From Psychromonas antarctica (GTDB taxonomy: Bacteria > Pseudomonadota > Gammaproteobacteria > Enterobacterales > Psychromonadaceae): a stretch of 55,599 nt of DNA. Below the pieces are notes generated by a model, which was not told the DNA's origin, ran no database searches, and saw only the letters and a program-made list of their open reading frames with translations. The stretch spans positions 1 to 55,599 of the forward strand of contig NZ_JAHNZV010000019.1 in NCBI RefSeq assembly GCF_022267535.1. Direction: 5' to 3'. The translations under genes and the position numbers were made by a program. Shown here piece by piece: positions 11,599 through 27,103 of the stretch. Within the stretch, counting starts at the first letter, position 1, and each line of letters opens with the position of its first letter.

Positions 11599-11675
11599 GG
11601 AGTGGTAGTTCAGTTGGTTAGAATACCGGCCTGTCACGCCGGGGGTCGCGGGTTCGAGTCCCGTCCACTCCGCCA
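11599..11675 (+). tRNA. tRNA-Asp (anticodon GTC), copy 1
   Basis: A 77-nt gene with encoded CCA. The acceptor GGAGTGG pairs with CCACTCC, the anticodon arm is CCGGCCTGTCACGCCGG with GTC, and the T loop is GGTTCGAGTCC. It is the first of five identical copies, probably transcribed as one precursor. Confidence 0.98.
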
Positions 11676-11739
11676 ATATCATACGCAAGTATGAATAGGC
11701 GTTAGTTAGCACAAATGTTGAATCTGATAATTATCACGT

Positions 11740-11816
11740 GGAGTGGTAGTTCAGTTGGTTAGAATACCGGCCTGTCACGCCGGGGGTCGCGGGTTCGAGT
11801 CCCGTCCACTCCGCCA
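11740..11816 (+). tRNA. tRNA-Asp (anticodon GTC), copy 2
   Basis: Identical 77-nt sequence to copy 1, including the encoded CCA; separated from it by 64 nt of unrelated spacer. Confidence 0.98.
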
Positions 11817-11890
11817 ACATTATTGTTAAACATTAATTTGTTTAGCTTTAACGAATAATTATCAAAAAGCTTGAACTGTAATACACTCGT

Positions 11891-11968
11891 GGAGTAGTAG
11901 CTCAGTTGGTTAGGCTTTGGCTTAACACAGTCGGCCTGTCACGCCGAGTTCGAATTTTTGCTCGAATA
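11891..11968 (+). pseudogene. Decayed tRNA-Asp copy
   Basis: It begins GGAGTAGTAG then CTCAGTTGGTTAG, like the 5' half of its neighbours. Extra sequence (GCTTTGGCTTAACACAGT) follows, then an intact anticodon stem-loop (CGGCCTGTCACGCCG), but the variable loop and part of the T stem are missing. After the T-loop-like GTTCGAA the 3' acceptor strand and CCA are lost. It is preceded by the same TGTAATACACTCGT leader as copy 3, so it arose by duplication inside the array and cannot fold into a tRNA. Confidence 0.8.
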
Positions 11969-12000
11969 AATAGTGATGATTGATACTGTAATACACTCGT

Positions 12001-12077
12001 GGAGTGGTAGTTCAGTTGGTTAGAATACCGGCCTGTCACGCCGGGGGTCGCGGGTTCGAGTCCCGTCCACTCCGCCA
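12001..12077 (+). tRNA. tRNA-Asp (anticodon GTC), copy 3
   Basis: Identical to copy 1. The preceding leader TGTAATACACTCGT also precedes the decayed copy, showing that the duplication unit included upstream spacer. Confidence 0.98.
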
Positions 12078-12148
12078 ACAGTATTTACGTATCAAGAAAA
12101 TTTATGTGTAACCAACACATAAAGTGAAGAAAGCTGTAGCACACTCGT

Positions 12149-12225
12149 GGAGTGGTAGTTCAGTTGGTTAGAATACCGGCCTGTCACGCCGGGGGTCGCG
12201 GGTTCGAGTCCCGTCCACTCCGCCA
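12149..12225 (+). tRNA. tRNA-Asp (anticodon GTC), copy 4
   Basis: Identical to copy 1, preceded by GTAGCACACTCGT, a variant of the same leader. Confidence 0.98.
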
Positions 12226-12304
12226 ACTTCATATTTATATGAATGAACGAGATGTACAACAGTCAATCTATAATGTGAGTTATAGAAAAATAAGAGATTT
12301 TCGC

Positions 12305-12381
12305 GGAGTGGTAGTTCAGTTGGTTAGAATACCGGCCTGTCACGCCGGGGGTCGCGGGTTCGAGTCCCGTCCACTCCGCCA
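12305..12381 (+). tRNA. tRNA-Asp (anticodon GTC), copy 5
   Basis: Identical to copy 1 including CCA. It is the last gene of the array. No clear intrinsic terminator follows it. Confidence 0.98.
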
Positions 12382-25801: not shown

Positions 25802-26025
25802 TTGTATAACTCTTTTTATTAGCGGTTAATTGACTATCCCCAGCGAGTTGAAAAAGAGACTTCAATTCACTAAACGATAAAACATTCTAGCATCCTGTAG
25901 ATAGTGCTACCAGTAAGTACTTGAAAGTTGATAGCGAGATAGCTATAGTCCTTAATTGATTTTTATTTTTGAGCGCGCTAACCTTTAAGCTAGCGATTAT
26001 TCCACTCTTACTACGTAGGTTAATG

Positions 26026-26328
26026 ATGGCAAATGTTGAGATCTCAATTTTAGGACAACCTTATAAAATTGCCTGCCCAGAGGGTGAGGAACTGACGCTA
26101 CAAAATACAGTTGAACAATTTAATGAGAAATTAAAAAAAATTAAAACCTCCAGCCGAGCTTTACGTAATGAGCAGCTTATTGTAATGGCTGCATTAAATT
26201 TCTGCCACGAGCTTAATGCAGAAAAAGCTAAAAACACAAAACAGACAGAGCAGCTCAGTAAACGGATCCACATTCTGCAGGAATCAATTGAGGCTGTTTT
26301 ACAAACTGATGAGAAAAAAACGCCATAA
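26026..26328 (+). CDS. zapA: Cell division protein ZapA
   Basis: FtsZ-ring-associated protein that bundles FtsZ filaments at midcell. From the ATG at 26026 it has 100 residues: an N-terminal beta-alpha head (ISILGQPYKIACPEGEE) and a C-terminal coiled coil (about 65-98). The open frame extends upstream to 25969, but family alignment and the AGG at 26017-26019 favour 26026; the adjacent ATG 26023 is also possible. 6S RNA follows, as in E. coli. Confidence 0.95.
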   Translation: MANVEISILGQPYKIACPEGEELTLQNTVEQFNEKLKKIKTSSRALRNEQLIVMAALNFCHELNAEKAKNTKQTEQLSKRIHILQESIEAVLQTDEKKTP

Positions 26329-26423: not shown

Positions 26424-26451
26424 TTGCAAATTCAAAAAACTGGGTTAAAGT
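26424..26451 (+). promoter_or_regulatory. Promoter of 6S RNA
   Basis: TTGCAA (26424-26429), a 16-bp spacer, then TAAAGT (26446-26451), placing the start near 26458, the expected 5' end of 6S RNA. Confidence 0.55.
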
Positions 26452-26457
26452 ATTTTT

Positions 26458-26638
26458 AACCCTCGGATATCCGCTCATCTTGACTACGTCCCTGAGCCGA
26501 TAAGCTTTATCCTGGTAACTTGGCTTGAATGCTATTGTGCAAGCTCGGCTCGTATCGAGAAGCCTACGGCAAACACTAAGAAACCGACTTTGACCTTCGG
26601 GTTCAAGGTCTACAGTCAATAGCGATATCCTTGGGTTA
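26458..26638 (+). ncRNA. ssrS: 6S RNA
   Basis: A global regulator that mimics an open promoter and binds sigma-70 RNA polymerase. Sequence blocks shared with E. coli 6S RNA are seen in order: CCCTGAGCCGATA in the 5' arm, then GCTCGG..CGAGAAGCCT around the apical region and GGGTTCAAGG in the 3' arm. The 5' end (CCCTCGGATATCCGCT) pairs with the 3' end (AGCGATATCCTTGGG) to form the closing stem. It lies between zapA and fthC, the classical location. Its 3' third is repeated downstream. Confidence 0.93.
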
Positions 26639-26658
26639 CTTTTTCAAACATAAAATAT

Positions 26659-27032
26659 GAAACCGGCATCTATCAACCTTCGGGTTACTAACTCACCGCC
26701 AATAACACTATCTTGAGTTACTTCTTCAAACACAAAATATGAAACCGGCATCTATCGACCTTCGGGTTACTAACTCATCACCAATAACACTATCTTGGGT
26801 TACTTCTTCAAACACAAAATATGAAACCGGCATCTATCGACCTTCGGTTACCAACTCATCACCAATAACAATATCTTGGGTTACTTCTTCAAAAAAAAAG
26901 AAACCGGCATCTATCAACCTTCGGGTTACTAACTCACCGCCAATAACAATATCTTGGGTTACTTCTTCAAAAAAAAAGAAACTGACATCTAAAGACCTTC
27001 GTGTTTCTCATCCACAATCAATAGCAATATAA
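26659..27032 (+). repeat. Five tandem diverged copies of the 3' module of 6S RNA
   Basis: Units begin GAAACCG or GAAACTG at 26659, 26741, 26823, 26900 and 26978. Spacings are 82, 82, 77 and 78 bp, and the last unit is degraded. The 6S gene holds the founding unit at 26580-26658: GAAACCG, then ACCTTCGGGTT, CAATA, ATATCcTTGGGTTACTT and TTCAAACA. Each full unit keeps a hairpin with a TTCG tetraloop and the ATC-TTGGGTTACTT segment that in 6S closes the molecule. No open frame is maintained, since the unit lengths are not multiples of three. It fills the gap between 6S RNA and fthC. Confidence 0.88.
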
Positions 27033-27103
27033 AATTTTCCTCTCTCTTATAAAAACAGTGGTATTATTTAGTGACTATTTTTAACGAGTTGCTAAAGAAC
27101 CTT

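Follow-up and report, generated by a model that had tools for sequence, protein, structure and literature searches.

Tandem copies of the 6S RNA 3′ end behind ssrS in Psychromonas antarctica and other gammaproteobacteria: possible serial transcript-end modules

The 6S RNA locus of P. antarctica

The stretch of DNA analysed in this study (the window) comprises 55,599 nt of contig NZ_JAHNZV010000019.1 from Psychromonas antarctica, and all coordinates in this section and the next refer to it (Table 1). It contains the gene (ssrS) for 6S RNA, which restrains RNA polymerase; this gene is preceded by zapA and followed, after five tandem copies of its own 3′ part, by an intact fthC (ygfA). The five copies and their starting points had been proposed in an earlier note, made from the letters of this DNA, and both are borne out by the analysis. 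Tandem Repeats Finder delimits an array at 26617-27030 with a period of 82, 5.1 copies and 89% matches, and the unit start motif GAAAC[CT]G occurs at 26580 (within 6S), 26659, 26741, 26823, 26900 and 26978, successive starts being 79, 82, 82, 77 and 78 nt apart. Copies 1-4 share 90-95% identity with one another versus 73-74% with the founding stretch of 6S. Copy 5 is 62-65% identical to all other units and its closing strand is gone, so that the array consists of four full copies and one decayed copy. The derivation of the units from the 6S 3′ part, and the greater likeness of the copies to one another than to their founder (copies 1-4), are thus as the note had read them. Since the duplicated stretch takes in trailer DNA, the event was a tandem duplication of the gene end plus its trailer.

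Table 1. Features of the ssrS region in the P. antarctica window.
Feature	Position	Strand	Evidence or value
zapA, upstream neighbour of 6S	25969..26328	+	Pfam ZapA, E 3.4e-22
6S RNA gene (ssrS)	26456..26640	+	RF00013, 77.4 bits (gathering 46.4), family positions 1-187 of 187
Founding unit: 6S 3′ arm and 18 nt of trailer	26580..26658	+	starts GAAACCG; 73-74% identity to copies 1-4
Trailer made of copies: C-rich, G-poor, candidate Rho-type termination region	26641..27035	+	C/G 2.27
Copy 1, 82 nt, closing strand mutated (TTGAGTTAC)	26659..26740	+	duplex with 6S 5′ strand -6.2 kcal/mol
Copy 2, 82 nt	26741..26822	+	duplex with 6S 5′ strand -12.1 kcal/mol
Copy 3, 77 nt	26823..26899	+	duplex with 6S 5′ strand -13.1 kcal/mol
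Copy 4, 78 nt	26900..26977	+	duplex with 6S 5′ strand -13.1 kcal/mol
Copy 5, decayed and without closing strand; end approximate	26978..27035	+	62-65% identity; duplex with 6S 5′ strand -3.3 kcal/mol
fthC (ygfA), next gene downstream in the ssrS unit; provisional start codon	27071..27721	+	Pfam 5-FTHF_cyc-lig, E 1.1e-47

The covariance model of the 6S family recognises ssrS itself and none of the copies behind it: the window has no second RF00013 match at the gathering score, and five other array loci have no additional match up to E 1. Extra complete 6S genes are thus ruled out. The Bacillus cereus group, according to the accessible part of PMC7726162, also has a tandem duplication at the 6S locus, but whole 6S genes are duplicated there, whereas in P. 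antarctica the duplication concerns the 3′ end only and yields no copy scoring as 6S.

That the repeats might be a dispersed element is ruled out as well, since a match search of the whole P. antarctica genome finds the array at one place only, beside 6S; the array thereby withstands, in this genome, the dispersal check that the note had named as a possible refutation. This single occurrence also argues against the units being attachment-site scars, left by an integrating element that used the ssrS 3′ end. Such an origin has a general precedent, because integrases commonly use the 3′ ends of stable-RNA genes. However, unit and spacer have been copied together with a near-constant period, and neither an integrase nor an element remnant is found among six tested neighbours, all of them household genes (on the upstream side an M24 aminopeptidase, UPF0149 and ZapA, on the downstream side FthC, RpiA and a 2-hydroxyacid dehydrogenase). 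We consider this explanation very improbable. The P. antarctica assembly is a 300-contig draft, and assembly could have affected the precise number of copies; the same kind of array is also present in relatives assembled as a single contig (G005, G145, G105 and G165).

A 97-aa open frame (26739-27032, + strand) runs from the last bases of copy 1 through the remaining array and is the only + strand frame of at least 60 aa there. A coding role was rejected: Pfam gives just a below-cut-off match to an unrelated domain, and copy 1 is out of frame with copy 2 because the two start 82 nt apart. Elsewhere in the window, positions 2523-2689 hold a direct duplication of 83 bp (two copies, 98% matches).

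Pairing, folding and composition of the array

Each complete unit had been described as keeping a TTCG-loop hairpin and the strand that closes 6S. The hairpin proved to be degenerate, its predicted energy weakening from -9.8 kcal/mol in 6S to between -2.4 and -2.8 kcal/mol in copies 1-4 and to -0.4 kcal/mol in copy 5. The closing strand fared better, though in part of the array only. The genuine one is predicted to form a duplex of -22.0 kcal/mol with the 6S 5′ strand, and the shuffle means for the copies lie between -3.4 and -4.7 kcal/mol; against this background copies 2-4 still pair, copy 1 is near chance (its duplex energy is equalled by 10% of shuffles) and copy 5 has lost the strand.

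Could the copies act as spare closing strands? A distal copy would then close a read-through RNA and give rise to longer 6S isoforms, or compete with the genuine 3′ strand and so modulate folding. The earlier note had entertained such alternative 3′ strands, and copies 2-4 could indeed pair in this way, but copies 1 and 5 are hardly able to. Moreover, the fold of the whole P. antarctica transcript uses the genuine closing strand with a probability of 0.97 and the copies with 0.00, so alternative strands are not favoured in this species. Likewise, G148 prefers its genuine strand (0.97). A distal copy is preferred at the other four of the six array loci folded as full transcripts: G001 (at 779, P 0.97), G072 (at 523, P 1.00), G145 (at 549, P 0.99) and G117, where copies at 585 and 790 share the pairing (P 0.70 and 0.30). 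Equilibrium folding of RNAs of 580-850 nt tells little on co-transcriptional folding. A role as spare strands appears unlikely to us.

The trailer made of copies stands out by its composition: its C/G ratio is the highest in the window, and none of 1106 tiles of 395 nt taken from both strands reaches it. There is no intrinsic terminator on the + strand of the array, and the + strand of the window contains no tandem intrinsic terminators, that is, at least two hairpins with T-runs in series. Internal sigma-70 promoters were rejected, as two promoter-like sites were found versus 2.1 expected, both on the minus strand. Also on the minus strand, a terminator-like hairpin lies over the very start of 6S (26442-26462; one found, 0.6 expected). 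On its composition (C/G 2.27), the array is a predicted Rho-type termination region. Comparable ratios are found in arrays across Psychromonas (1.84-2.74) and in genus g10 (2.00-3.74). Array-free Psychromonas spacers (the 12 measurable to fthC, 67-150 nt long) show ratios of 1.38-4.67 too, and therefore the array does not create the excess of C over G.

Arrays of 6S ends in other genomes

The survey covered 216 6S loci, 151 of them in a first alignment scan and 65 further ones. In the alignment scan the downstream region was searched with the 3′ segment of the same locus, and a match counted only if it exceeded all of 100 shuffles as well as a set minimum; shuffled downstream regions gave no false positives (0/151). 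At the same site in relatives, arrays turned out to be present in other Psychromonas (6/23 loci: G000, G001, G005, G016, G021 and G023), in genus g10, which we take to be probably Moritella (6/7), and in Shewanella (14/91), and there was none among 30 other loci, one of which belongs to genus g16. The further 65 loci, taken from the 6S matches listed, gave two arrays, both in genus g16 of family f16 (2/6 there and 2/7 for g16 overall), and the remaining 59 non-f16 loci, which include one Shewanella, three loci from other genera of family f10 and eight of family f18, have none. Other families contribute 1 to 11 loci each to this further set. The Shewanella sample consists of 91 of the 116 genomes with a 6S match, plus the one in the further set. 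Downstream stretches vary in length, and a few of them (G016, G023 and G104) stop at a contig edge.

Extra 10-nt copies of the closing strand are found at 23/91 Shewanella, 2/7 g10 and 3/23 Psychromonas loci and at 0/30 of the others; in Shewanella 40 copies are seen versus 1.18 expected. The alignment scan thus overlooks diverged Shewanella arrays (14/91 vs 23/91 by closing-strand copies). At G149 the single copy lies 650 nt away and may be due to chance. A scan of named contigs, overlapping the main set, included 95 loci (80 named among those listed), 94 of them testable, and found 11 with arrays: four in Psychromonas, six in Shewanella and L158, which on reading is an array of the Shewanella type. 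Array-bearing Shewanella include S. fidelis, S. pneumatophori, S. nanhaiensis, S. atlantica, S. abyssi and S. kaireitica. Altogether, 6S-end arrays recur in four genera. A second, weak 6S match (49.1 bits) was noted at G129:C502:1485-1665, in a genome of 1060 contigs with 5% contamination.

Within Psychromonas, a zapA + 6S tree places five of the six array-bearing species in one clade of seven, in which G022 and G015 are array-free, and P. hadalis (G016, with an array) apart, with weak support. Close relatives differ: P. aquimarina has an array and its close sister P. ossibalaenae has none, and the same holds for the sisters G023 (array) and G015 (none). Spacers also differ among species. The Psychromonas arrays may have one origin followed by losses, or several origins.

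Such differences between close sisters are what would be seen if the arrays arose by neutral tandem duplication, through slippage or unequal exchange at the end of a highly transcribed gene, the copies being homogenised, later lost and without function. Several features of the P. antarctica array agree with this: copies 1-4 are nearly alike and copy 5 is decaying, and a short CAAACA stretch, common to 6S and its trailer near the unit junctions, could seed slippage. Furthermore, retention is uniform along the units of Psychromonas, g10 and f16 (from an over-gapped alignment with no shuffle control), and thus no part of the unit looks selected. For the P. antarctica array taken alone, neutral duplication is a serious rival. 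Yet the arrays occupy the same site in four genera and are found at 0/30 other loci and 0/59 non-f16 loci. Taking all arrays together, and in view of the Shewanella units described below, neutral duplication is in our opinion possible rather than probable.

Shewanella units combine a closing strand with a terminator

Within 800 nt after 6S, the 91 Shewanella loci have no intrinsic terminator in 45 cases, one in 24 and two to seven in 22, so tandem terminators are present at 22/91 loci. A terminator-like hairpin lies within 120 nt behind 37/40 of the extra closing-strand copies, for a shuffled rate of 0.005; behind the genuine 6S end a terminator is found within the same distance at 42/91 loci. 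The three copies that lack one are in G149, G062 and G127. Because the detection rule demands pairing, decayed terminators are missed, as in G062, and the word intact applies only to those found.

Retention was also measured from the other side, in 10-nt blocks of each genome's own 6S upstream of 48 secondary terminators from 22 Shewanella genomes. The block with the closing strand is retained at 0.95 vs 0.62 in shuffles and the next block, with the tail, at 0.95 vs 0.63; the inner closing strand reaches 0.73 (shuffles 0.58-0.62) and the hairpin blocks 0.60-0.67 (shuffles 0.60-0.62). From both anchorings, on secondary terminators and on extra closing-strand copies, it therefore follows that the Shewanella unit consists of the closing strand, an AU-rich tail and an intrinsic terminator. 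Terminator stems vary within one array (G145 and G117); in G145, for instance, CCATCA/TGATGG and GGGCTATC/GATAGCCC are both found. The preservation of a terminator behind 37/40 copies, with different stems in the same array, and the concentration of retention on closing strand, tail and terminator speak against functionless duplication.

The 6S 5′ strand is of three kinds among Shewanella loci with at least two terminators, and the closing hexamer of a genome's own type is present in 39/48 secondary units, while the permuted values averaged 19.7 and peaked at 36, with 0/5000 reaching 39. In these permutations labels were shuffled among genomes. Given that the species are related, concerted changes may be behind the matching as few as two or three times. 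G155 departs from the pattern, its closing strands having drifted in all four secondary units. This matching favours spare closing strands, but it fits selection for pairing and homogenisation with 6S alike. Indeed, retention of the unpaired tail equals that of the closing strand (0.95 at offsets 0 and 3), so the strand matching could be homogenisation, a point in favour of neutral duplication; this equality points to homogenisation or else to a processing site.

A bolder reading would treat the cassettes as spare 6S 3′ ends, each with a coevolving closing strand of its own type and its own termination signal, giving a family of longer isoforms whose share is set by termination efficiency (temperature, pressure, Rho). 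We regard it as improbable. If it were true, a polymerase reading past one end would still make a closable 6S, and cold-sea bacteria would possess an added regulatory layer. In one Shewanella group (G139, G145 and G112; the units of L158 are those of G139) every unit has, next to its direct closing-strand copy, 14-16 nt that are perfectly complementary to the genome's own 6S at about positions 162-178. Under the same reading, this antisense to the 6S 3′ arm could let the read-through RNA open 6S.

Alternatively, processing of the units could yield small RNAs that have functions in their own right. A precedent is provided by the RrA/B/F RNAs, located between dual terminators in three of the E. 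coli rRNA operons (PMC8144298); the 6S complement in each unit of G139, G145, G112 and L158 points the same way. Across 20 distinct units (from G117, G090, G155, G135, G130, G127, G139, G145 and G112), which were chosen by a looser form of the motif, an inverted repeat of 5 bp, CCGAC..GTCGG, never varies. It is the sole conserved hairpin, and because covariation is absent from these 20 units, its structure is putative. Nor does any Rfam family other than 6S match the array stretches of the window and of five further loci. Small RNAs of this kind seem unlikely to us. Alternative closing strands, small RNAs and attachment-site scars all rank below serial terminators and neutral duplication.

Repeated 3′ ends behind other stable RNAs

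Are repeated ends peculiar to 6S RNA? Five of 37 P. antarctica tRNA genes tested (30 loci) have partial 3′ copies downstream, in two clusters, tRNA-Leu and tRNA-Gly. Behind tRNA-Leu (L347, contig C289, minus strand) there are four degenerate copies of the tRNA 3′ end with spacings of 166, 167 and 174 nt; copies 1-3 are each followed by a hairpin-T terminator and copy 4 is decayed, so this array is built like those behind 6S in Shewanella. The tRNA-Gly cluster (L342, contig C238, minus strand) has three partial 3′ copies between and behind complete tRNA-Gly genes. A group of five tandem tRNA genes with identical scores and unequal spacing was also noted at 11599-12378 of the window; the anticodon reads tRNA-Asp. 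As a control, tmRNA showed no 3′ repeats behind it in any of 27 array-bearing genomes (0/27), which shows that not every stable RNA is affected.

The closest known system is E. coli tyrT/tyrV, with its 178-bp repeats, the rttR/rtT RNA and tpr. Like the P. antarctica array, it consists of tandem trailer copies that start with the 3′ end of a stable RNA; as a sequence yardstick, the final 19 nt of tyrV reappear 178 nt further on. Transcription undergoes Rho-dependent termination within the tyrT repeats. Downstream tandem repeats containing the stable-RNA 3′ end, as at tyrT, are thus present in P. antarctica. The systems differ in that the stable RNA is a tRNA in one and 6S in the other, and the annotated Tpr protein has no counterpart in P. 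antarctica, where no protamine-like protein is encoded in the repeats. The rtT RNA family (RF00391) has no match in the window at the gathering score or in five array loci up to E 1.

Another comparison is offered by the dual terminators T1-T2 of E. coli rRNA operons, which, in the accessible part of PMC8144298, place more than one terminator behind a stable RNA with read-through RNA between them and so resemble the Shewanella arrays. The same part of that source describes no repeat of the rRNA 3′ end, and the P. antarctica array differs further in having no intrinsic terminator on its own strand. Titles and abstract openings of the literature matches listed (subscription papers lying outside this search) contained no report of repeated 6S 3′ ends. 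The earlier note knew of no described 6S variant like that of P. antarctica. The locus is not a one-off: the same kind of array recurs in Shewanella, in the probable Moritella and in a fourth genus, as well as behind tRNA-Leu and tRNA-Gly and at E. coli tyrT.

Discussion

What could the arrays be for? We favour, by a modest lead over even chances, an explanation in which they are tandem amplifications of a stable-RNA transcript-end module and work as a string of terminators behind 6S. The duplicated module would comprise the last part of 6S, with the 3′ closing strand, and the trailer in which transcription ends. In Shewanella, each unit would typically bring its own intrinsic terminator directly behind the copy of the closing strand. 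The addition per unit in Psychromonas and the probable Moritella would be about 80 nt of weakly structured, C-rich and G-poor RNA of the type that Rho uses. With more copies, fewer transcripts would reach fthC and more would end soon after 6S, to be trimmed afterwards to the mature end. On this account, ends of stable-RNA transcription units are recurrently duplicated, and the duplicates may be retained because they end transcripts.

The strength of this account differs between lineages. In Shewanella it is well supported by the coupling of closing strands with terminators. In Psychromonas its basis is the composition of the array, together with the E. coli analogy. From these observations we infer that the units terminate transcription, that Rho probably does so in Psychromonas and that copy number may be selected for termination. 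Against a function stands the fact that 17/23 Psychromonas loci are array-free by the alignment scan.

The ending of 6S transcripts is little understood, and so is the reason for which so many gammaproteobacteria join 6S to fthC. Sister species with and without a natural array, which adds one to six ends, offer a comparative test. The similar arrays behind tRNA genes suggest that stable-RNA transcript ends are amplified by a general process, of which E. coli tyrT would be an instance. In E. coli, as in P. antarctica, 6S is followed by fthC (ygfA) with a termination region, in P. antarctica a candidate one, between them, and termination of E. coli ssrS is reportedly Rho-dependent, in work attributed to Chae in 2011. 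Repeated 6S ends are present in P. antarctica, unlike the 30 other and eight f18 loci, among which E. coli was not identified. The significance of the ssrS-ygfA pairing was called not known in 2010, in the accessible part of PMC2848244.

The Shewanella loci allow the relation with fthC to be followed. fthC lies within the fetched stretch behind 6S (mostly 1.1-1.5 kb) at 48/91 loci, and at these the terminator before it is absent in 41, single in three and multiple (two or more) in four. By comparison, at least one terminator is present at 35 of the 43 loci without fthC in the fetched stretch (none at eight, one at 17, two or more at 18). In Shewanella, terminator arrays thus mostly accompany the absence of a close 6S-fthC pairing.
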